Below are positions 14,660 through 24,043 of a DNA stretch of 64,000 nt, piece by piece. The DNA lies in contig JAFEFC010000016.1 in the NCBI GenBank assembly GCA_018240785.1, positions 121,699-185,698 on the forward strand, given 5' to 3'. How positions within the stretch are numbered: the first letter of the stretch is position 1; each line of letters starts with the position of its first letter. The position numbers and the translations under genes were made by a program. The notes under the pieces are model-generated. The model saw only the letters and a list, made by a program, of their open reading frames with translations, searched no databases and was not told the origin of the DNA. Origin of the DNA: Pseudomonadota bacterium. Its GTDB lineage: Bacteria > Pseudomonadota > Gammaproteobacteria > Burkholderiales > Rhodocyclaceae.

Positions 14660-14675
14660 TGGCACAGGAAATGCT
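14660..14675 (+). promoter_or_regulatory. Sigma-54 (-24/-12) promoter of the first glycine-rich gene
   Basis: TGGCACAGGAAATGCT matches the RpoN consensus TGGCAC-N5-TTGCW with one change (A for the first T of TTGC) and exact GG/GC spacing. It ends 61 bases before the ATG, nearly the same geometry as the paralogue's site (63 bases). A sigma-54 activator is encoded in the same locus. Confidence 0.72.
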
Positions 14676-14735
14676 CACGATCTATCCGAGGCACGGCACG
14701 TTGCCATGTCTTGACATCAGTCAGTGGAGGAAGCC

Positions 14736-16616
14736 ATGAAACAGAGTGTGCTCGCGAGTGCCATCGCGCTTGCCTTCGGTTTTGCCACACAGGCGTGGGC
14801 GAATCCGACCAACACCGTGACGGAGGCGACGTCAACGGCGAATCAGACTGCGACCGCCAATTCGACCCAAGGCGGTACCGGTCCGCAGGCGAACGAAGGG
14901 TCCAAGGCAGTCTGGCTCAACAATTCCAACAGCAGTGACAATTCCGACCACAGCCAGCACAGCTCCCAGAAGAACAACAACAGCACGGGCAATAATCGCA
15001 ACAACGATGGCGCGGCATCCGCAAGCGATTACGCAACTGCGGCCAACAATGCCGGCTCCGCGAGCAGCACCATCAATAACGCGTTCAACAAGAGCGCTGC
15101 GATGGCGATCACCAAACTCAGTGGTATGGTGACCGGCGTCCGTGTCTATGGGCTGGGCAACCAGGCTGGCAACATGGGCAGTGCCAACGGCGGAGACGGC
15201 GGTACGGCCTTCGGCGGCAACGGCGGGAAGGCCTACGGCGGTGATGCCAAGGGCGGCAACGGCGCAAATGGCGGCATGGCTTTCGGCGGCAATGGTGGTG
15301 ATGGCGCGAAAGGCGGCAACGCCAGCGGCGGCGACGCCCAGAGCGGCAGCGCCGCCGCGATGGCGAGCGGTGGCAAGGCGTATGGTGGCGGGGCGGATTC
15401 CGGCTCGGTCAGGGCCGGTGGCGGCGGCGCAGCAACCGGCGGCGATGCCACCAGCGGCTACGCCAAGGGTGCCAGCGGCGGCGACGGTGGCAATGCCAGC
15501 AAGGCAGCGGGCCTCGGCGGCGGTGATGCGTATGCCAAGGTCGGCTCGTCGGCAGACTCTGGCCGGGCGAGCGGCGGTGATGCGACCGGTTCCACAGGCA
15601 GCGTCAAAGCGAGCGGTGGTGATGGCGGCGCGAGCAGCACGGCTGCAGGCGGCAACGGCAAAGGCAGCGGCGGCAACGCTGGTGTCATGACCAGCGCGCG
15701 CCTCGGCAGCGCTGGCGCGGGCAACAACGCCGACGGCAGTGGCGCCACCGGGGGTAGCGCAAACGCGGGCGGCGCTTGGGCGAAGGCGATCGATGCCACC
15801 GCGAACGGCCGCGGCGGCGGCAACGACACTGCGAGCGCGGGCAACAATGCGCAGGCCACGGGCGGTGCAGGTGGAACCGGCGGCAATGCAACTTCAGCCG
15901 GCGGCCAGACCGGGACGTCGCAGGCTCAGGGCGGCAGCAGCCAGCAGAACGCCGGCGCGAGCGGTGGCAATGGAACGGGCAACGGCGGCACGGCCACTGC
16001 GAGCGCGGGATCCACTGGGGGCGGCGCCAACGCGACGGGCGGCATGAACACCTCCACTGGCGGCCAAGCAACGTCCGGCATGGCGATGGCCCAGTCTGGC
16101 AATAGCTCGGCGATCGGCGGCGCAGGTGGCAATGCGGCGAACAACGGCGGCAACGGCGGCAACGGTGGAACCGCGCAGACGGGCGCGGCCAGCGGCGGAT
16201 CGGCCAACGGTGGCGCCGGCGGTCAGGCGTCGAGCGGCGCCGCCAGTGGCGGCGCGGCAACCGGTGGCAACGGCTCCGGCTCCTCCACCAGCGGCCTGGC
16301 ATCGGGCGGCTCGGCCACCGGCGGTGCGGGTGGTGCAGGCGGCACCGGGCAAGGTGGCACCGGTGGTGCAGGCGGCGCAGGCGGCTCGCTCACCGCGGGC
16401 GCAGCGACCGGCGGCAGCGGCCAGGGTGGCGCCGGCGGCGCGGGCGGCAGCGGCGGCGCGGTCGCTGTCGATGCCGGTACCTTCAACATGGCCAACAGCA
16501 TCGGCGGCAGCTTCACCAACGGCGCCGGCATCATCATCAATGCCATGAACACCGGGATCGGTGCCTTGGTCCAGCAAAGCGCAAACGTCCAGGCCAACCT
16601 GAACTTCAACCGCTGA
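14736..16616 (+). CDS. Secreted glycine-rich repeat protein A (putative fibre/matrix protein)
   Basis: I do not recognise a named family for this 626-aa protein. Residues 1-22 are a signal peptide (cut after QAWA). Residues 23-92 are Asn/Ser/Thr-rich. Residues 93-150 form a less repetitive domain (DYATAANN, INNAFNKSAA, VYGLGNQAGN). Residues 151-582 are low-complexity Gly/Ala/Ser/Asn with GGxGG and GGNGGxG units. Residues 583-626 are a conserved C-terminal module ending VQANLNFNR. There are no cysteines. ATG 14736 has GGAGG 5 bases upstream. It has its own sigma-54 promoter and terminator, and a 625-aa paralogue follows. By context with a C39 peptidase and FapF-like barrel it is the likely exported cargo. 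RTX calcium nonapeptides are not evident. Confidence 0.82.
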   Translation: MKQSVLASAIALAFGFATQAWANPTNTVTEATSTANQTATANSTQGGTGPQANEGSKAVWLNNSNSSDNSDHSQHSSQKNNNSTGNNRNNDGAASASDYATAANNAGSASSTINNAFNKSAAMAITKLSGMVTGVRVYGLGNQAGNMGSANGGDGGTAFGGNGGKAYGGDAKGGNGANGGMAFGGNGGDGAKGGNASGGDAQSGSAAAMASGGKAYGGGADSGSVRAGGGGAATGGDATSGYAKGASGGDGGNASKAAGLGGGDAYAKVGSSADSGRASGGDATGSTGSVKASGGDGGASSTAAGGNGKGSGGNAGVMTSARLGSAGAGNNADGSGATGGSANAGGAWAKAIDATANGRGGGNDTASAGNNAQATGGAGGTGGNATSAGGQTGTSQAQGGSSQQNAGASGGNGTGNGGTATASAGSTGGGANATGGMNTSTGGQATSGMAMAQSGNSSAIGGAGGNAANNGGNGGNGGTAQTGAASGGSANGGAGGQASSGAASGGAATGGNGSGSSTSGLASGGSATGGAGGAGGTGQGGTGGAGGAGGSLTAGAATGGSGQGGAGGAGGSGGAVAVDAGTFNMANSIGGSFTNGAGIIINAMNTGIGALVQQSANVQANLNFNR

Positions 16617-16625
16617 CGCTGACAT

Positions 16626-16754
16626 GCGCAGCGGGACTCACGTTCCCGCTGCGCCGCCGCCAGAGTTTGACACCTTCCGTGATTCAGCCTTCTCGCTGCC
16701 CGCCGGGTCGAAAAGGCAATTCAGGAATTGCCGCGCACTGCGCGGCTTTTTTTT
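16626..16754 (+). terminator. Terminator region after glycine-rich gene A
   Basis: A perfect 11-bp stem (GCGCAGCGGGA at 16626-16636 with its complement at 16644-16654) lies 10 bases after the stop. A classical terminator follows: GCCGCGC ACT GCGCGGC (16730-16746) and then eight Ts (16747-16754). Gene A is therefore probably transcribed as a single unit. Confidence 0.85.
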
Positions 16755-17032
16755 GCCCGGATGCTGCCGCCGATTCAGCCAGCGCGAGCGACACCTCACT
16801 GCTACGACCTTCGGCTGATTCAGCGGCGATACACTTGCTATTTACATATTTATGCATTCCACGCTATTGATTTTAAGCGTCTTATTGAGAATTTCAAAAC
16901 CAATGGCCGGAACTCTACGGCGGCGTATTGTGTATCACGATTGGAACACTCACCCCTTGAAGCAGGGCGCCAGCCTACTTCCAGTCCTCTCCCCCACCGC
17001 GGAACACGACCATCCACGCGCCATTGCGGTCA
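16755..17032 (+). other. AT-richer intergenic region upstream of the second sigma-54 promoter
   Basis: No credible gene. Bases 16825-16925 are clearly lower in GC than the surroundings (TATTTACATATTTATGC and neighbours). This is the position where an enhancer-type activator site or a bendable segment would lie for the sigma-54 promoter at 17033. I see no clear repeated operator. Confidence 0.45.
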
Positions 17033-17048
17033 TGGCATGGGAGTTGCG
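17033..17048 (+). promoter_or_regulatory. Sigma-54 (-24/-12) promoter of the second glycine-rich gene
   Basis: TGGCATGGGAGTTGCG matches TGGCAC-N5-TTGCW with exact GG/GC spacing and an intact TTGC. It lies 63 bases before the ATG. The leader that follows resembles the leader of gene A (CGAGGCA, GCCATG, CTTGACA, then GGAGGAAGCC before ATG), so promoter and gene were duplicated together. Confidence 0.8.
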
Positions 17049-17110
17049 AACGCTCTTTCACGAGGCAGGGCGCGTCGCCATGCCTTGACACCAAATCAGC
17101 GGAGGAAGCC

Positions 17111-18988
17111 ATGAAACTTAGTCTGCTCGCGAGCGCAATCGCACTCGCATTCGGTTTTGCCTCGCAGGCATCAGCAAACCCCACCAACACGCTCGACTCT
17201 GCCGACACGGCAACGCAAAACGCGACGGCCAATTCGAACCAGGGTGGGACCGGCCCTCAAGCCAACGAGAACTCGATCGCGAAGTGGTCGAACAACTCGG
17301 ACAGCAGCAACAACTCCAACAACAGCGTGACGACGCGCGAACGCAACGACAACAGCCAGGGCAATGATCGCAATAACGACGGCAGGGCCTCTGCACGTGA
17401 TTACGCTACCGCGGCGAACAACGGCGGCACCGCGACCTCCAGCATCGACAACGCATTCAACACGAGCAAGGCGGTCGCCATGTCGAAGCTCGATGGCGCG
17501 GTCACCCACATCAAGGTCAACGGCCTTGGCAACAACGCGATGAACTCCGGTAATGCCAACGGCGGCAATGGTGGCAAGGCCTACGGTGGCGACGGCGGGA
17601 TGGCGGTGGGTGGGAGTTCCAAGGGCGGCAACGGCGGCGACGGCGGCAAGGCCTGGGGCGGAGATGGCGGTAACGGTGCAAGGGGCGGTAGCGCCTGGGG
17701 CGGCAATGCCGAAAGCGGTGGCGCCAAGGCGGCGGCAGCCGGTGGCAACGCGATGGGCGGCAGCGCCGATTCCGGCTATGTGAAGGCCGGCGGTGGCGGC
17801 GACGCGACCGGCGGCGCAGCCGCGTCGGGCAACGCCAAGGGCGCCGTCGGCGGTGACGGCGGCAGCGCGCGCGGCGCGATGGCTGGCGGTGGCGGCGACG
17901 CCGCTGCGAAGGTCGGCGCGTCGGCCGATAGCGGCAAGGCCAGCGGCGGCGACGCGATGAGCATGGTCGGCGGCGCGAAGGCCGGCGCGGGCGACGCCAG
18001 TTCCAGCAGCGTCGCTGCCGGCGGCGCCGGGAAGGGCTATGGCGGCGATGGCTGGTCGGCAGCCAAGGCCTCCGTCGGCGGCGCCGACGCGGGTAGCACG
18101 GCAGGCGGTAGCGGCGCATCGGGTGGCAGCGCAGGCGGCGGCAGCGCAAGCGGCAAGGCGGTCGATGCCCTTGCGAACGCTCGTGGATCGGGTAACGACA
18201 CGGCCTCGGCAGCGAACGCCGCGACCTCCAATGGCGGAGCCGGTGGCAATGGCGGCGCCGCTCAGTCGAGCGGCGGCACCACGGGTGCGGCAACCGCGAA
18301 TGGCGGTAGTGGCACGCAGACCGCAAACGCGTCCGGCGGCGCTGGCTCGGGCACCGGTGGCGCCGGCAGCGCATCCAACACTGCAGCCGGAGGCGCAGCC
18401 ACTGCTGGGGGCGGTACGGGTAGCGCGACCGGAGGTGCAGGCGCGTCGGGCACGGCAACGGCAACTTCTGGCGCGGGCTCGGCCACCGGTGGCAATGGCG
18501 GCTTGGCTTCCAACACCGGCGGCGCCGCCGGCAATGGCGGCACGGCCTCCACCGGCGCGGCGAGCGGCGGTGCGGCAACCGCAGGCAATGGCGGCACGGC
18601 TACCAGCGGTGGCGCTAACGGCGGCGCGGCCAACGGCGGCGGCGCCACGACGACGGCCTCCAGCGGTAGCGCCAGCGGTGGCGCGTCCAATGGCGGTGCT
18701 GGCGGTGCTGGCGGCGCGGGCAACGGCGGCGCAGGTGGCGCAGGCGGTAGCGGCGGAACGCTGGCCGGCGGTGCGGCTAACGGTGGCGCGGGCAACGGCG
18801 GCAGCGGCGGTGCTGGCGGCGCTGGCGGCACGGTAAGCGTCGCGGCGGGCACCTTCGACATGTCCAACAGCATCGGCGGCAGCTTCACCAACGGTGCCGG
18901 CATCATCATCAATGCCATGAACAGCGGCATTGGTGCTCTGGTGCAGCAAAGCGCCAACGTGCAGGCCAACCTGAACTTCAACAGGTAA
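17111..18988 (+). CDS. Secreted glycine-rich repeat protein B, paralogue of A
   Basis: A 625-aa protein of the same architecture as protein A. It has a 22-residue signal peptide (cut after SQASA), an Asn/Ser-rich segment, a middle domain with RDYATAANN and IDNAFN, a Gly/Ala/Ser/Asn low-complexity body from about residue 150 to 580, and a C-terminal module (582-625). That module is identical to protein A's at 41 of 44 positions. The ends are conserved while the repeat body differs, suggesting the ends are read by export or assembly machinery and the body is structural. ATG 17111 follows GGAGG. It leads a likely operon with the next three genes. Fibre or adhesin function is inference. Confidence 0.82.
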   Translation: MKLSLLASAIALAFGFASQASANPTNTLDSADTATQNATANSNQGGTGPQANENSIAKWSNNSDSSNNSNNSVTTRERNDNSQGNDRNNDGRASARDYATAANNGGTATSSIDNAFNTSKAVAMSKLDGAVTHIKVNGLGNNAMNSGNANGGNGGKAYGGDGGMAVGGSSKGGNGGDGGKAWGGDGGNGARGGSAWGGNAESGGAKAAAAGGNAMGGSADSGYVKAGGGGDATGGAAASGNAKGAVGGDGGSARGAMAGGGGDAAAKVGASADSGKASGGDAMSMVGGAKAGAGDASSSSVAAGGAGKGYGGDGWSAAKASVGGADAGSTAGGSGASGGSAGGGSASGKAVDALANARGSGNDTASAANAATSNGGAGGNGGAAQSSGGTTGAATANGGSGTQTANASGGAGSGTGGAGSASNTAAGGAATAGGGTGSATGGAGASGTATATSGAGSATGGNGGLASNTGGAAGNGGTASTGAASGGAATAGNGGTATSGGANGGAANGGGATTTASSGSASGGASNGGAGGAGGAGNGGAGGAGGSGGTLAGGAANGGAGNGGSGGAGGAGGTVSVAAGTFDMSNSIGGSFTNGAGIIINAMNSGIGALVQQSANVQANLNFNR

Positions 18989-18997
18989 GCCTCTGAC

Positions 18998-19033
18998 GGA
19001 TGCCGGCCGTCAGCAACTGACGTGCCGGCATCC
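18998..19033 (+). promoter_or_regulatory. Long intergenic hairpin inside the operon
   Basis: GGATGCCGGC + CGTCAG, loop CAA, CTGACG + T + GCCGGCATCC forms a 16-bp stem with one bulge, placed 10 bases after gene B's stop. There is no T-run. Its position after an abundant structural-protein gene suits a transcript stabiliser or partial attenuator that lowers expression of the downstream processing genes. Confidence 0.6.
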
Positions 19034-19062
19034 GGGCGCGAGCATCCAAGAAGGAGGCAACC

Positions 19063-19428
19063 ATGAGATCTGCTGCACTGATGATCGCGTTGGGAATTGG
19101 ATTGGCCGCGACCTGCGCGACGCCTGCACGCGTGCATGCGGAGGAAGGTGCTGCGCTAAGCTCGGACTCCGCTCCACTCGTCCTCGGACACAAGCTGGTG
19201 GATACGGAGACACTTGCGCAGCAACGCGGCGGTGCCGACACTCATCTCAGCGAGATCCGCGCCGTGGGCTCTGTCGCGGATGTGAAGGCCTACGACCTGA
19301 CGACAGGTCAGAACGTCATTTCGGAAGGCTCGTTTGCCGGTACTGCCGGCATGCCGCTGGTGGTCCAGAATTCGGGCAACGGCGTGCTGATTCAAAACGC
19401 GGTCATCCTCAATGTCGAGGTCCACTAG
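19063..19428 (+). CDS. Small secreted protein with a double-glycine motif and the glycine-rich proteins' C-terminal module
   Basis: A 121-aa protein with a signal peptide (cut near RVHA, residue 26). Residues 47-57 read DTETLAQQRGG, resembling the double-glycine leader motif recognised by C39 peptidases. The last 33 residues (FAGTAGMPLVVQ onward, including NSGNGVLIQNA) align with the C-termini of the two glycine-rich proteins: F-x3-AG, N-S/T-G-x-G, L-V/I-Q-N/Q-S/A. It could be a minor subunit, nucleator or chaperone comparable in position to the small Fap components, but I do not recognise a named family. The ribosome site is AAGGAGG. The C39 peptidase gene starts 11 bases after it. Confidence 0.75.
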   Translation: MRSAALMIALGIGLAATCATPARVHAEEGAALSSDSAPLVLGHKLVDTETLAQQRGGADTHLSEIRAVGSVADVKAYDLTTGQNVISEGSFAGTAGMPLVVQNSGNGVLIQNAVILNVEVH

Positions 19429-19439
19429 CGGAGATGAGC

Positions 19440-20144
19440 ATGAACACGCTCGGTCTGCATCGGCTTCTCGTTTGTGCCGTGGCCGCTGCCTTGGGCAGTG
19501 TGGCCACGGCATCCCTTGCCGACAGCCTCAACCTGGTTGCGCCGCTGGGTGGCAGCATGAACGTGCCCGCCGTCAGCATGAAGCAGACGCGCTTCATCTC
19601 AACCCTGCACCAGCAATATGACTTCAGTTGCGGCTCGGCCGCGCTTGCCACGCTGCTGAGCCACCACTACGGCCAGAAGGTGGACGAAGCCACCGTGTTC
19701 CAGACCATGTTCGAGCGTGGCGACCGAGAGAAGATCCGTCGCGAGGGCTTCTCGATGCTGGACATGAAGCTTTACCTCGACAGCAAGGGCTTCAACGCCA
19801 CCGGCGTCGAGGCAACGCTGGACGAGCTGGACAAGGCGAAGGTGCCGGCCATTGCCCTGATCAACGAGAACGGCTACGCGCATTTCGTGGTCATCAAGGG
19901 GCTGCGTCCGGGCGAGGTGCTGATCGGCGATCCTGCAGCCGGCACGCGCGTGGTTCCTCGCGCGGACTTCGAGCGCCACTGGATGAACAACATCCTGCTG
20001 GTGGTGAGCAACCGCGTCGAACTCGCCCGCTTCAACCAGGACGTCGACTGGCGTGTCCGTCCGAAGGCGCCACTGCGCAGTGGTGTGAATGGGGGCGGCG
20101 TCGACATGCAGTTGCTGCAGCGGCGCAGCCTTGTGGACTTCTGA
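19440..20144 (+). CDS. Secreted C39-family cysteine peptidase (FapD-like)
   Basis: A 234-aa protein with a signal peptide (about residues 1-27) and a single C39 domain. Catalytic residues are visible: Gln (QQYDFSC), Cys64 in FSCGSAALATLL, His148 in GYAHFVVIKGL and Asp164 in IGDPAAG. C39 peptidases cut after double glycines. Usually they are fused to ABC exporters; a stand-alone secreted form is characteristic of FapD in the Pseudomonas functional-amyloid operon. ATG 19440 is chosen because GGAG lies 6 bases before it; an ATG 6 bases earlier abuts the ribosome site. Candidate substrates are the two neighbours carrying LxxxRGG motifs. The family call is firm; the FapD equivalence is inferred from context. 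Confidence 0.88.
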   Translation: MNTLGLHRLLVCAVAAALGSVATASLADSLNLVAPLGGSMNVPAVSMKQTRFISTLHQQYDFSCGSAALATLLSHHYGQKVDEATVFQTMFERGDREKIRREGFSMLDMKLYLDSKGFNATGVEATLDELDKAKVPAIALINENGYAHFVVIKGLRPGEVLIGDPAAGTRVVPRADFERHWMNNILLVVSNRVELARFNQDVDWRVRPKAPLRSGVNGGGVDMQLLQRRSLVDF

Positions 20145-20156
20145 GCGGAGACGGTC

Positions 20157-21017
20157 GTGGACATTCGCAAACCGTTGATTTGCGCATTGCCGCTGCTCCT
20201 TGTCGGGGGGTTGATGTTGCCCGACGAGGCGACATCCAACGGCCGCGACAGCAGCGCTCTCACAGGAAACGGCTTCAAACCCGGGAAGTGCGCAATCGAC
20301 CCGCCGGCCGAACTGCTCGCCCTCTCCGACTGGCCGCTCGACAGCGCAGACAGTTGCCTGGGCGGCAGCAACATGACCGATGCGCGCACTGCGGACGTAA
20401 GGCTGGCTGAAGTCGTGGAGGCCCGCGTGCGCCCGGTGCGCGAAATCCTCATCGCGAGCATCGAGGACAAGCAGCCACCGGCCACACGCCGCGAGCACCA
20501 GGAGGCCGATGGCGCAGCGGAGGAGACTGTCGCGCCAACGTCAGCGCCCTTGCGGACACGTGAAACCAAGGTGGAAAGAGGCGCTGAACTGCTGGCACGC
20601 GCTGGCGTGAAGGACGATGAGCTCGACAATCTGCGCGGCGGCTTTCAGACCTCGCAAGGGCTCAGCGTGAGCTTCGGCATCGAGCGCGTCGTCTACGTTA
20701 ATGGTGTTCTTGAAAGCACCACCGCTCTGCGCTTGGAGGATCTGGCCCGGCTGCAGGGTGGAGCAGCGGGCTCAGTTGCAGCGTTGCCGCCCGGCGCTAC
20801 CGTGGCGCTGATTCAGAATGGCGGCGGCAACACGGTCGCGACCAACGCGCTGTCGGGTTCGGCACTGGGCACGATCATTCAGAATTCACTCGACAATCAG
20901 AAGATCCAGACGGTGACGACCGTCAATGCGACCGTCAACAGTGTGCAAGCTCTGCAGAGCCTGCGGATGCAAAGTTCACTCCAGGAAGCGCTGAATCGCG
21001 CCACCCTTATGCGCTAA
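20157..21017 (+). CDS. Secreted 286-aa protein with a double-glycine motif (FapE-like position)
   Basis: It starts with GTG after GCGGAG. Residues 1-20 are hydrophobic (signal peptide or anchor). Residues 60-150 are charged and probably partly helical. Residues 153-162 read DDELDNLRGG, close to the ELxxIxGG leader consensus of C39 substrates, and LEDLARLQGG follows at 193-202. Between them is a beta-type stretch (LSVSFGIERVVYVNG). The C-terminal third (TVALIQNGGGN, then ALGTIIQNS) repeats the IQN/IQNS module of the neighbouring proteins and ends in a helical SLQEALNRATLMR. Position and size suit FapE of the Fap system, but I could not confirm homology. A 14-bp terminator stem follows. Confidence 0.72.
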   Translation: MDIRKPLICALPLLLVGGLMLPDEATSNGRDSSALTGNGFKPGKCAIDPPAELLALSDWPLDSADSCLGGSNMTDARTADVRLAEVVEARVRPVREILIASIEDKQPPATRREHQEADGAAEETVAPTSAPLRTRETKVERGAELLARAGVKDDELDNLRGGFQTSQGLSVSFGIERVVYVNGVLESTTALRLEDLARLQGGAAGSVAALPPGATVALIQNGGGNTVATNALSGSALGTIIQNSLDNQKIQTVTTVNATVNSVQALQSLRMQSSLQEALNRATLMR

Positions 21018-21038
21018 GAAGGCACTGCAACACGCTGC

Positions 21039-21081
21039 ATGGCCTATGGAAAGACTGCGTAACGCCGTTTCCATAGGCCAT
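21039..21081 (+). terminator. Strong hairpin between the convergent halves of the locus
   Basis: ATGGCCTATGGAAA (21039-21052) pairs perfectly with TTTCCATAGGCCAT (21068-21081), a 14-bp stem with a 15-base loop. It probably serves as a shared terminator for the 286-aa gene and the convergent barrel gene. The T-run on either side is weak. Confidence 0.7.
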
Positions 21082-21101
21082 CTTCCCCCAAAGACAGCGG
21101 G

Positions 21102-22388
21102 CTAGAACGAGAGCGGAGTCCTAAGAGTCAGTTGAACGTCAGGCGTATCTCGCGTTACGCCGACGCCAAGTGAGAGGTTCAACGTACGCTGAGAATTCAC
21201 TTTGTACGAAAAGCCCAACAGAAGCGAACCGAGCTGCACACGAACTCCACTCGCCTTGGCGCCGTTCTCAAAGGTCGCGTTCGTCTTCCCGACCGAGAGA
21301 TGATCGTAGCCGATGCTGAAGGAAGACCGTTCGTTGATCGCCAGACCCATCCCGAAGTTGAACCCCAAGACCCCGCCTGGCTGAATTTCCGCATAATTCG
21401 CAAGTTTGGTAACTGGCACCACATTAGGCGTGACGTTGTCACGCTTGAAACTATATTGATAACTGATACCGCCGAAGAAGACGGCTGGATCCGAAGGAAT
21501 CAACACCGTCAGACCTGGCGTCAGGGAGTAAAAACCTGAGCCGGTCGGCAATTCTTCCTGAACCGCTGACGCGCGTGCCCCGTCAGCTTGGTAGCTTGTT
21601 CTGACTTCAAATGGATCTTTGCCTGTCCGAGTCTTGAGGCGCAGAGATGCGATGTAATACGGTGAATCTCCACCGCCGTCGTTAAGTTGGTAGCGACCGG
21701 TTAGTTCCACATCGCCAAGTCCACGGCCAGTGCTATCCACAAAAAACTCGTCTGTGGCCTGCCCGGTAAAGACCTCCCGCCCACGCGTATTGTCGAAGCG
21801 ATAGACATACGGCACGCGCGCCTCCAACTCGAAACGGTTGGTGATGCCGCGCCGCACGGCGAGCGTGCCGGTAAAGCTGTTCGACTTGACGTTGCGAACG
21901 TCGATCAAGCCGATCAGGATCGCCGGAATAACGGTGTAGCCAACGAGCGCGATCTTGTCCGACGACGAGTAGGAGTACTGCAGCGACGGCTCGACGATCC
22001 ACTTGCCGGGAGGCGTGAGCACACCGGGCTGCTCGAAGATCGGAGCCACCTCAGGCGGCCGCTCCGGCGCTGCTGGGGCCTGGCCGACGGGGCGGGACGA
22101 TTCCGGCGCAGGCGCCGCCTGTGCCACCGCTGCAGGCGGCGGCGTGTCGCCACGTCCGCGGCGGTTCAGGTCCAGTTCTCGCCGCAGTTCTGCCAGCGCT
22201 GCCTCCTGTCGTTGCAACTCGCGCTTCATCAACTCGATCTGCCGGGTCTGCACATCGAGTTGCTGCTGCATCCCATCCATGCCCGAGACCGCCTCGTCGG
22301 CGGCCAGCGCACCGTTGGCGGACGCAGCCAGCAACAGCCCGGCGACCGGAGACCCCAGTCTGCGAGTCGAACGAAACAAGCACACCAT
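21102..22388 (-). CDS. FapF-like outer-membrane beta-barrel with N-terminal coiled coil
   Basis: A 428-aa protein with a signal peptide (to about residue 30). A predicted coiled coil follows at 38-74 (heptad-like QQQLDVQTRQIELMKRELQ), then a Pro/Ala linker at 80-118, and a C-terminal beta-barrel from about residue 120. The barrel has alternating strands and ends in a C-terminal phenylalanine (RTPLSF). The barrel start (GVLTPPGKWIVEPSLQYSYS), the IGLIDVRNV segment and NRFELEARVPYVYRFDN resemble FapF, the trimeric pore that secretes Pseudomonas amyloid subunits and whose coiled coil gates the pore. The related alpha-amylase/phenol-pathway porin families are the alternative. It lies 39 bases downstream of the sigma-54 activator, probably in one transcript. 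Confidence 0.8.
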   Translation of the reverse strand: MVCLFRSTRRLGSPVAGLLLAASANGALAADEAVSGMDGMQQQLDVQTRQIELMKRELQRQEAALAELRRELDLNRRGRGDTPPPAAVAQAAPAPESSRPVGQAPAAPERPPEVAPIFEQPGVLTPPGKWIVEPSLQYSYSSSDKIALVGYTVIPAILIGLIDVRNVKSNSFTGTLAVRRGITNRFELEARVPYVYRFDNTRGREVFTGQATDEFFVDSTGRGLGDVELTGRYQLNDGGGDSPYYIASLRLKTRTGKDPFEVRTSYQADGARASAVQEELPTGSGFYSLTPGLTVLIPSDPAVFFGGISYQYSFKRDNVTPNVVPVTKLANYAEIQPGGVLGFNFGMGLAINERSSFSIGYDHLSVGKTNATFENGAKASGVRVQLGSLLLGFSYKVNSQRTLNLSLGVGVTRDTPDVQLTLRTPLSF

Positions 22389-22427
22389 GACACCCCCCAG
22401 TGGACAGTCAAGCCGCCGTCGCTGCGG

Positions 22428-23825
22428 CTAAAGAATGATTTTCAAGCGATCGATCATGCGGTACAGCGTGACACGGGATATTCCGAGTTGGCGAGCCGTC
22501 TCGGAGACGTTGTTGCGATGCCTGCGCAGGCTGGTCTCGATGACCTCACGCTCGATCGTCGAGCGCATTTCCTCGAGCGTGGGTGCCGCGGTTTCTGCAT
22601 CCGCCACTGAAAGCCCCAGATCGGCAGCGCTCATGAGCTTGTGCTCGCTCATGATCATCGCCTGCTGCACGCGATTGATCAGCTCGCGCACGTTGCCGGG
22701 CCATGGGTAATCGACCATGGCACGTATGGCCTCGGAGCTGAAGCCCCGCACCTGCGGACTTTTCTGGTGCTGGTTGTCGCAGAAGATGGCTTCGGCCAGC
22801 CGCGGGATGTCCTCCTTGCGCTCTCGCAGCGGCGGCACGTTCAGGTGCAGGACGTTCAGGCGGTAATACAGATCCTGGCGGAACTTGCCCTCGACGACGG
22901 CACGCGCAAGGTCGACGTGGGTTGCCGCAATCACCCGCACGTCAACCTTCACCCGCTCGGTGGAACCTACCCGCGTGATCATCTTCTCCTGCAGGAAGCG
23001 CAGGAAGCTGGCCTGAAGATCGAGGGGCAGATCGCCGATTTCGTCGAGAAACAGCACGCCTCCGGCGGCGGCCTCGATGCTCCCCACCTTGCGCTGGTTC
23101 GCCCCGGTGAATGCCCCACGCTCGTAGCCGAACAGCTCGGAATGGATGAGCGTGGGCGCGATCGCGCCGCAGTTCATGGCGACGAAGGGACCGCGCGCCC
23201 GTGCCGAGTGCTGGTGGATGGCGTGTGCGACCAGCTCCTTTCCCGAACCGGACTCGCCGCCAATGAGCACCGGCGCGTCAACCGTGACGACCTTGTCCAG
23301 TTGCCGGTAGAGCTGCAGCATCTTCGGGCTCGAGCCCGTCATTCCATAGCGCCCGGACACATGTGGTGCTTCGCTGTCGCGGGTGCAGAACTGAACCTTT
23401 CCGTAGGCATGCCCAAGAGAAAACTGCAGTCGCTCCCGGTCGATCGGCATCGAGTGGAAGTCGTGGAACTGGCGCAGGATTCCCGCCGGGAAGGCTCCGG
23501 TGCGCAGTAATCCTTCACCAAGAACCGCAATCCACTCGATGTCGTGGCGCGAGATGAGCGCCTCCACCTCGCGCTCGGCCCATGAGGAGATGGAGTCGAA
23601 GACGACAAGCCCAACCGAAGCACCGCTCGACACCAGCGCGCGGCGTGCGGCGTCAAGCGACGACACCTCAAGAAAGTCCCAGTCCTGCAGCTCGAGCGCG
23701 CGCAACGTGGAACACAGTGCGCCCACCCTGTCCACAACCAACACCTTACGACTGGACATGGCGACAGCAATGATCGAAAAAAAGGCTATCACCGGGGCAC
23801 CGGCGTGATGCCCCGCAGGCTTCAT
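22428..23825 (-). CDS. Sigma-54-dependent activator of the VpsR/FleQ type
   Basis: A 465-aa enhancer-binding protein. Residues about 24-150 form a receiver-like domain (Asp77 is the possible acceptor position) with the DFHSMPIDRERLQFSLGHAYG end typical of VpsR-type regulators. Residues 165-400 form the AAA+ domain with Walker A GGESGSGK (189-196), the sigma-54 contact loop GAFTGA (237-242) and Walker B VLFLDE. The C-terminus is a Fis-type helix-turn-helix (NNVSETARQLGISRVTLYRMI). ATG 23825 has AGGAGG 8 bases upstream; an internal Met at 23759 is the alternative. VpsR and FleQ bind cyclic di-GMP and control matrix genes; that input here is inference. Its own sigma-54 promoter suggests feedback. 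Confidence 0.9.
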   Translation of the reverse strand: MKPAGHHAGAPVIAFFSIIAVAMSSRKVLVVDRVGALCSTLRALELQDWDFLEVSSLDAARRALVSSGASVGLVVFDSISSWAEREVEALISRHDIEWIAVLGEGLLRTGAFPAGILRQFHDFHSMPIDRERLQFSLGHAYGKVQFCTRDSEAPHVSGRYGMTGSSPKMLQLYRQLDKVVTVDAPVLIGGESGSGKELVAHAIHQHSARARGPFVAMNCGAIAPTLIHSELFGYERGAFTGANQRKVGSIEAAAGGVLFLDEIGDLPLDLQASFLRFLQEKMITRVGSTERVKVDVRVIAATHVDLARAVVEGKFRQDLYYRLNVLHLNVPPLRERKEDIPRLAEAIFCDNQHQKSPQVRGFSSEAIRAMVDYPWPGNVRELINRVQQAMIMSEHKLMSAADLGLSVADAETAAPTLEEMRSTIEREVIETSLRRHRNNVSETARQLGISRVTLYRMIDRLKIIL

Positions 23826-23901
23826 TCATGGCTCCTCCTGTTCTCGGGTCGCAGCCAGCCCATACGTGATCAGGCCAAGGGCAACGCTAGGATGAAAGCG
23901 A

Positions 23902-23918
23902 CGGGCCTTTAAGGCCCG
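23902..23918 (-). promoter_or_regulatory. Perfect palindrome in the activator leader
   Basis: CGGGCCTTTAAGGCCCG is an 8-bp perfect dyad around a central base, 77 bp upstream of the activator start and inside its predicted 190-nt leader. It could be an operator or a small RNA hairpin. The rest of the 23826-24190 gap holds no credible gene, only the promoter and terminator listed next. Confidence 0.4.
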
Positions 23919-24027
23919 CGCAGCAATTCCTCCCTGCCGCCACTTCACGTCTCCAGTCACTTTCGAACCGGTCGATCGGCCAGCCGGCAATCTTCTTGCG
24001 AGGGTTTACCGAGCGGCCAGCGTAGTC

Positions 24028-24043
24028 AGCAAACAGTGTGCCA
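24028..24043 (-). promoter_or_regulatory. Sigma-54 (-24/-12) promoter of the activator gene
   Basis: The minus strand reads TGGCACACTGTTTGCT, a perfect match to the RpoN consensus TGGCAC-N5-TTGCW. It would start a transcript about 190 nt upstream of the activator. Bases on its far side (24045-24120) are unusually AT-rich. Confidence 0.82.

Follow-up and report, generated by a model that had tools for sequence, protein, structure and literature searches.

A probable FapD/FapF-type export locus with glycine-rich cargo in Thauera: a sister system of Fap

The closest described relatives of the locus reported here are the canonical Fap systems of Pseudomonas, in which, as in our locus, a coiled-coil outer-membrane barrel of FapF type and a periplasmic C39 peptidase accompany secreted subunits with Fap-type modules. 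Three repeats in both FapB and FapC are described as almost universal among canonical operons, and surveys anchored on this repeat call Fap evolutionarily 'fixed', with three repeats (PMC12822426). That the fapD-fapF pair has relatives is already known: the FapD and FapF models were noted to match larger families (Dueholm 2013, PMC3792158), and such pairs were noted in five further phyla (2018 review, PMC6173800). Here we describe a block of seven genes between argJ and secA in a 64,000-nucleotide stretch of contig JAFEFC010000016.1 (the whole stretch is referred to as the window). The host belongs to the genus Thauera, and the nearest named relative of the window barrel is that of Thauera sp. 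2A1, with 92-93% identity. As judged from its sequence and that of related loci, the block is a sister system of Fap with glycine-rich cargo and lies outside the canonical Fap family. We consider it probable that it encodes a FapD/FapF-type export and surface-assembly system whose bulk cargo is two long glycine-rich proteins with one module each.

An earlier note on this DNA, made from the letters alone, had listed two secreted glycine-rich proteins, a small secreted protein, a C39 peptidase, a 286-residue protein, a barrel and a sigma-54 activator. The open reading frames of the window agree with that description, all seven being where the note put them, and a sigma-54-type promoter match lies at each of the two end points that it gave, 14660 and 24043. 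Five genes on the forward strand converge on two on the reverse strand, where the barrel gene lies 39 bp downstream of the activator gene; Sec-type signal peptides, judged by eye, are present at the start of the five forward-strand products and of the barrel. The features are as follows.

14660..14674, forward strand: sigma-54-type promoter match TGGCAC-N5-ATGC, 9/10 consensus positions, 76 bp 5' of the GlyA start codon.
14736..16616, forward strand: open reading frame of GlyA, a secreted glycine-rich protein with a conserved N-terminal part, a Gly/Ala/Ser/Thr/Asn core and a conserved C-terminal module, very probably of Fap-repeat type.
17033..17047, forward strand: sigma-54-type promoter match TGGCAT-N5-TTGC, 9/10 positions, 78 bp 5' of the GlyB start codon.
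17111..18988, forward strand: GlyB, a GlyA paralogue with 65% identity to GlyA.
19063..19428, forward strand: sm121, a 121-residue secreted protein with a predicted leader ending LAQQRGG, then a 64-residue part with one Fap-repeat-like module.
19434..20144, forward strand: periplasmic C39 peptidase, FapD-like (Pfam PF03412 2e-25; NCBIfam FapD 2e-39; hhalign 7e-65).
20157..21017, forward strand: FapE-like protein of 286 residues (hhalign to FapE 3.4e-5).
21102..22388, reverse strand: outer-membrane barrel with a coiled coil, a putative FapF-like exporter (NCBIfam FapF 4e-46; PDB matches; hhalign 1e-76).
22428..23825, reverse strand: sigma-54 activator with an N-terminal VpsR domain and a Fis-type helix-turn-helix (Pfam PF00158 1e-69, PF20161 2e-13, PF02954 1e-11).
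24029..24043, reverse strand: perfect (10/10) sigma-54 promoter match TGGCAC-N5-TTGC, preceding the regulator-barrel pair.

A Pfam scan of the seven proteins gave scores above cut-off only for the C39 peptidase (2e-25) and the sigma-54 activator (1e-69), the two domains that had been read from the sequence. Profile comparisons identify the barrel and the peptidase as certain homologs of FapF and FapD, the grouping against which the earlier note had asked its reading to be checked. FapF ranks first among NCBIfam models for the barrel (4e-46; 158 bits, below the cut-off of 700), and the match spans positions 33-420 of the 420 in the model and residues 37-428 of the barrel, N-terminal part included; the coiled coil was judged by eye. 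A PDB search with a profile of 23 barrels returned the FapF entries 5o67, 5o65 and 5o68 at 6e-52 to 5e-50, with the next match at 0.53, and hhalign paired barrel and FapF at 1e-76 over 418 columns (0.0015 in the reversed control). Here and below, the canonical Fap profiles for hhalign were built from the proteins of 12 loci, and the controls have one profile reversed. FapF is described as a trimer of 12-stranded barrels (PMC5557850), and 'secretin', as it had been called in the earlier note, is the wrong word for it. For the peptidase FapD ranks first (2e-39; 135 bits, below the cut-off of 330), hhalign gives 7e-65 (reversed, 0.48), and each of the 95 aligned rows (95 of 95) retains the catalytic residues Gln60, Cys66, His150 and Asp166; its relatives in the PDB, the best at 6e-8, are double-glycine-type C39 domains from ABC transporters. 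The FilB and FilC models of an Acinetobacter 'putative pilus system' (NCBIfam NF050078, NF050079) rank second for peptidase (1e-32) and barrel (6e-18), more weakly than FapD and FapF and below cut-off, and it is in these two models that the likeness to Fil is seen. Elsewhere in the genome of the window, G000:C54:11816-12043 weakly matches (9.8e-6) the FapF family in its N-terminal part.

The 286-residue protein is likely to be a homolog of FapE, because a weak hhalign score (3.4e-5, probability only 45%; reversed, 0.51) is joined by a common landmark at the same place in both proteins. Canonical FapE reads ELxxLRG[KR][YF] and then FG[IV], and the 286-residue family reads ELxxLRGGF and then SFGIER, with not every member keeping each letter; unlike canonical FapE, the window protein has a true GG at the predicted cut site. 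The kinship with FapE proposed in the earlier note is upheld only weakly by this alignment and fails with the NCBIfam model, as described below.

The seven-gene block is not a chance arrangement, since the same gene set recurs in 23 other loci of the window type. The barrel was matched in 31 of 200 genomes, that of the window among them, and 23 of the other 30 have such a locus (L032-L055 without L052). All 23 contain the C39 peptidase and sm121, 22 the 286-residue family, 22 a glycine-rich open reading frame, and 21 a strong nearby regulator match; in the remaining seven genomes the barrel match belongs to a canonical-looking Fap locus (three), to another C39-barrel locus (one) or to a fragment (three). 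Named genomes, when scanned, gave 303 barrel relatives, not all necessarily of the window type. Among the best 80 of these, 45 are from Burkholderiales, 21 from Rhodocyclales, 7 from Lysobacterales, one from Hyphomicrobiales and 6 unassigned, with 26 named genera, and even with short contigs included 72 have the C39 peptidase, 72 sm121, 70 the 286-residue protein, 65 the regulator, and 57 and 51 matches to the N-terminal and C-terminal glycine-protein models. When only the 48 loci with at least 8 kb on each side are considered, the counts are 48, 48, 47 and 43 for the first four, and the glycine-rich gene is found by profile in 42; in the other six a glycine-rich open reading frame with the same C-terminal ending was recognised by eye. 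Some named loci share genomes with training loci (e.g. L099 and L033), so these counts do not constitute an independent test. Gene order varies: 26 of 70 loci have the C39 gene downstream of the barrel and convergent with it, and the others have it upstream. One genome with a full system (G175) has at another place a second FapF-like barrel (L052:9397-10593) that lacks recognised C39, sm121 and FapE-like neighbours. At L096:2988-8370 (G334) the cargo-sm121-C39-FapE-like block is present as a near-identical tandem pair, either a real duplication or an assembly artefact, and its cargo is Asn/Ser/Asp/Thr-repeat-rich, not glycine-rich.

We then examined loci held out from model building. The barrel profile was matched at 1e-30 in 33 of 369 genomes of the class, including that of the window, and 16 of the other 32 score at least 325 bits; the held-out set comprises 15 of these 16 (G229, seen before, was excluded) together with five loci of 208-230 bits. 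At E<=1e-3 the 15 high-scoring loci, two of which have little DNA around the barrel, contain the C39 peptidase in 13, sm121 in 12, the 286-residue protein in 11 and a glycine-protein N- or C-terminal model in 11. The five low-scoring loci all have C39 and regulator matches and none has sm121 or the 286-residue protein. The canonical Fap-repeat model gives the reverse pattern, matching 0 of 15 high-scoring and 5 of 5 low-scoring loci, which are canonical. The combination of glycine-rich protein, C39 peptidase and barrel, which the earlier note had proposed to look for in Rhodocyclales, therefore recurs widely, in the 23 loci, the 48 complete named loci and the held-out loci alike.

A tree of 48 peptidases places the 13 canonical FapD proteins in one clade (support 100/100) on a branch of 1.82, with the window type on the other side, except for L095, which is weakly paired (44/59) with a far longer outlier. 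The tree took 28 named loci chosen from the 72 with a C39 peptidase, and came with a program warning about adjoining long branches. Two genomes, G229 and G284, carry both kinds at separate loci, the assignment in G284 being from gene content. The separate FapD clade, the presence of both kinds in G229 and G284, and the clean split in gene content point to two parallel systems. The interpretation in the earlier note, a Fap-type system with glycine-rich cargo, is borne out in its machinery and its cargo; it requires amendment in that the locus belongs to a separate sister lineage rather than being a fap operon with other cargo.

Unlike canonical Fap, the block lacks FapA and three-repeat FapB/FapC: none of the seven proteins matches the NCBIfam FapA, FapB or FapC models, and sm121 was rejected as a FapA candidate (hhalign 0.79). 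The FapA chaperone is often absent from canonical Fap systems also. In place of these proteins the block has two long glycine-rich proteins with one terminal module and the 121-residue protein with one module. It further differs in its convergent barrel, its separate clade, and scores below the NCBIfam FapD and FapF cut-offs. In canonical fap loci L086-L090 we note that FapA has an LSDxDFAxVxSG-like stretch that resembles a double-glycine leader.

In GlyA and GlyB an N-terminal part of some 140 residues is conserved, as is the ending, which is of the type GAGIIINAxNSGIGALVQQSANVQANL; in the core between them Gly makes up 29-44% per 75-residue segment and is accompanied by Ala, Ser, Thr and Asn. 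Neither protein contains Cys. For GlyA neither Pfam nor NCBIfam gave a match at E<=1, and no Pfam family was found for 21 glycine-rich proteins at E<=0.01. Regular GGX (polyglycine-II) packing of the whole core was rejected, as the lag-3 autocorrelation of Gly is 0.02 and -0.00 (shuffles, 0 +/- 0.05); the residues immediately preceding the terminal module look locally GGX-like.

The link of these endings to Fap repeats runs through the cargo of two held-out loci, and sm121 also resembles Fap repeats. When a hidden Markov model (HMM) of the canonical Fap repeat was run on 8713 open reading frames of window-type loci, all 13 matches at E<=1 were sm121 (best 0.066) and none was a glycine-rich protein; the reversed-sequence control gave one unrelated match. 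Conversely, the sm121 C-terminus run on 893 open reading frames of canonical loci, only 38 of which are FapB/C or FapE, gave a top eight consisting entirely of FapB/C or FapE (best 0.0015), with lower matches mixed. A curated sm121 profile (93 of 96 rows kept, two over-long rows and the window row having been dropped) aligns with the 286-residue family at 1.4e-11 (reversed, 0.026), the glycine-protein ending at 5e-6 (0.63), Fap repeats at 0.0018 (0.12) and FapE at 0.0016 (0.35). Held-out loci L199 and L201 have cargo proteins of 301-328 residues with 9-11% Gly and about four repeats each.

L199:4258-5163, L199:7658-8644 and L201:6093-7004: low-Gly multi-repeat cargo.

Nine repeats from these three proteins, cut by a pattern devised after viewing the sequences, match the glycine-protein ending at 2.3e-7 (reversed, 0.21), canonical Fap repeats at 8.2e-6 (0.12) and sm121 at 1.3e-7 (0.015), with no match to the 286-residue family (0.18). 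Because the same repeats match both the glycine-protein ending and canonical Fap repeats, the glycine-rich proteins very probably end in one Fap-type repeat, and the cargo of the sister system very probably extends from multi-repeat proteins to a single repeat joined to a glycine-rich chain.

Double-glycine leaders have a hydrophobic residue at -7 and often at -4, with GG at -2/-1. The FapE-like protein has a variable 162-residue N-terminal region ending ELDNLRGG, followed by 124 residues starting FQTSQGLSVSFGIERVVYVNG; R160-G161-G162-F163 is invariant in 63 aligned homologs, which were chosen with RGG[FMI]. The pattern [LIVMF]xxxRGG, counted anywhere in the protein and in all six frames, is present in 92/92 members of the 286-residue family and 83/95 of sm121, as compared with 14/103 barrels, 4/89 regulators, 2/95 C39 peptidases, 1/79 glycine-rich proteins and 260/8151 other open reading frames of the same loci; members were found by models that contain the site, which favours it. 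All 11 held-out loci with a 286-residue gene have LxxxRGG. Mean majority identity is 25% at residues 120-150 of the 286-residue protein and 60% at and just after the site (homologs trimmed to 40 residues before it), and the low conservation before RGG is as expected of a disposable leader. Since this conserved site matches the double-glycine leader pattern and lies beside a C39 gene, we predict that the FapE-like protein is cut by the C39 peptidase after RGG. GlyA and GlyB contain 62 and 66 GG dipeptides, yet no C39-leader-like motif, and such a motif is present in only 2 of 42 full-length homologs. The FapE-like protein (20157-21017) has a second, LxxLQGG-like stretch about 40 residues past the first site, shared only with its closest relatives. 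A small secreted protein with LASIRGRF (L092:8001-8444, genome G284), inside a canonical fap locus with two FapD and two FapE genes, is the best canonical-locus match of the mature FapE-like model (E 0.043).

In Pseudomonas the active cysteine of FapD is reported to be needed for secretion, and among the Fap proteins complete N-terminal processing is reported for FapE alone; in its treatment of FapD the same paper recognises no canonical C39 motif and calls the target unclear (PMC5557850). A 2018 review describes the FapD substrate as yet to be determined (PMC6173800), and a 2025 review names FapE and FapF as the proteins that FapD is 'thought' to process (PMC12822426). The invariant RGG of the FapE-like protein offers a precise, testable candidate substrate site for a FapD-type peptidase.

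The glycine-rich genes follow putative sigma-54 promoters. A match at 9 or more of 10 positions is present in the 350 bp 5' of 34 of 62 such genes in relatives, as compared with 2.2% of random windows, and a perfect match in 21 of 62, as compared with 0.47%; the background is 4000 windows, and the relatives are not independent of each other. Matches at this level are rare 5' of sm121 (1/73), the C39 gene (3/71) and the 286-residue gene (0/81). The number of pattern matches across the window is uninformative (10, with 6.6 expected), and it is the position 5' of the glycine-rich genes in relatives that is informative. Autoregulation of the regulator from a sigma-54 promoter of its own was rejected; the site in the window is perfect, but no more than 3 of 48 relatives have one that reaches 9/10. 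Canonical Fap resembles the window in having a VpsR-domain sigma-54 activator nearby, and three canonical fap loci, when scanned, had neighbouring regulators with the same Pfam domains. VpsR-type activators respond to cyclic di-GMP (c-di-GMP).

We propose that the VpsR-type activator, probably answering c-di-GMP, would turn on the glycine-rich, sm121, C39 and FapE-like genes from -24/-12 promoters, and that their products would reach the periplasm via Sec. There the C39 peptidase is predicted to remove the leader of the FapE-like protein by cutting after RGG, and to cut sm121 likewise in the window and most related lineages; the glycine-rich proteins of the window would stay whole because they are without an RGG site. 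The freed pieces and the unfolded glycine-rich proteins may then exit through the coiled-coil barrel. Outside the cell sm121, possibly a nucleator or minor subunit, would nucleate, and the FapE-like protein anchor, a glycine-rich surface polymer that is held by Fap-type modules and might act in adhesion or as matrix. We infer fibre or matrix formation, as had the earlier note.

Several results weigh against the interpretation of the block as a sister system with processed, Fap-module-bearing cargo. The NCBIfam FapE model matches none of the 63 FapE-like homologs at E<=0.1. The strict RGG of sm121 is absent from 12 of 95 homologs and present in only one of 12 held-out loci, with most others having a degenerate LxxxR[GA]x. 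Compared directly, the glycine-protein ending was rejected as a Fap repeat, the alignment not being significant (hhalign 0.28), and the HMM of this ending finds no canonical protein above noise; the hhalign values are 0.6 for the ending and the FapE-like family, and 0.89 for the FapE-like family and Fap repeats. The four-repeat cargo of L199 and L201 is not glycine-rich, and the regulator model matches only 8 of the 15 high-scoring held-out loci at E<=1e-3.

One alternative explanation is that the block is a canonical fap operon of the ordinary kind whose FapC has diverged, that is, the same system with a subunit sequence that has drifted. The C39 and barrel families and the VpsR-type regulator are common to both kinds of locus, FapC linkers are known to vary (PMC3792158), and L199 and L201 carry four Fap-like repeats in their cargo; however, canonical FapD forms a fully supported clade on a long branch, two genomes contain both kinds, the gene content of held-out loci splits cleanly (Fap-repeat model, 0/15 and 5/5; sm121 model, 12/15 and 0/5), and three-repeat FapB/FapC is reported as near-universal in canonical operons (PMC12822426). 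This explanation is already disfavoured and we regard it as improbable. Secretion of a microcin-like double-glycine peptide, with the glycine-rich proteins accessory or unrelated, has a model in the Neisseria nap island, which like the window combines a C39 peptidase (NapP), a FapF-related channel (NapF) and small GG-leader proteins (PMC11798529), and sm121 has a GG-type leader in the window and would be small once cleaved (64 residues). The Nap peptides are described as autolytic and, for Naps A-C, cationic (PMC11798529), whereas the small protein of the window is acidic and is accompanied by glycine-rich proteins, a FapE-like protein and a VpsR-type regulator. Mature sm121 has a median charge (K+R-D-E) of -2 among 84 RGG homologs, with a range of -7 to 0 and none positive, and was rejected as a microcin on these grounds; furthermore, its RGG is lost in most held-out loci, it has a Fap-repeat-like module, and a glycine-rich gene is present in all 48 complete named loci, six of these by eye. 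We consider peptide secretion very improbable.

A different question is what the glycine-rich proteins would form, and it is possible, although we lean against it, that they are exported by the machine but make a disordered hydrated coat or sheath rather than an ordered amyloid fibre. The long, low-complexity Gly/Ala/Ser/Thr/Asn core without periodicity is consistent with this, as is the single Fap-type module per protein where FapC has three. However, the C-terminal module is kept, with an LVQQ-type end in 73 of 81 sequences (found by that same model), and its tie to canonical Fap repeats via the multi-repeat cargo suggests that this end, at least, assembles in an ordered way.

Taking the sister-system interpretation further, we tentatively suggest, with confidence falling a little short of an even balance, that Fap-type secretion is one of two branches of a superfamily. 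The second, in Burkholderiales, Rhodocyclales and Lysobacterales, would build surface polymers from subunits ranging from four repeats to one terminal repeat plus a glycine-rich chain, and its C39 peptidase would license export by removing the double-glycine leader from the FapE-like protein and, in most lineages, from the one-module nucleator as well; canonical FapE would keep a degenerate LRG[KR] site. If so, FapE, cut at LRG[KR], would be the long-sought substrate of FapD. Among the papers listed in searches of the open full-text literature we found none on a glycine-rich FapD/FapF locus or on Fap in Thauera or Azoarcus, and none giving the definition of the sister system, its cargo, the shared module, the promoters or the double-glycine sites. 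Despite its FapD/FapF-type machinery the sister system, with a quite different cargo, escapes the repeat model at usual thresholds. Sludge and granules harbour Thauera, Azoarcus, Dechloromonas and Accumulibacter, and a glycine-rich matrix polymer in such bacteria could therefore matter for flocs and granules.

Within the genus Thauera gain or loss has involved the cassette as a whole, at a single site, since the distance between secA and argJ depends on its presence. In 12 of 12 barrel-less genomes of the genus examined (of 20) the secA-argJ gap is 4-103 bp, as compared with 7.3-10.2 kb in the five system-bearing genomes with both flanks.

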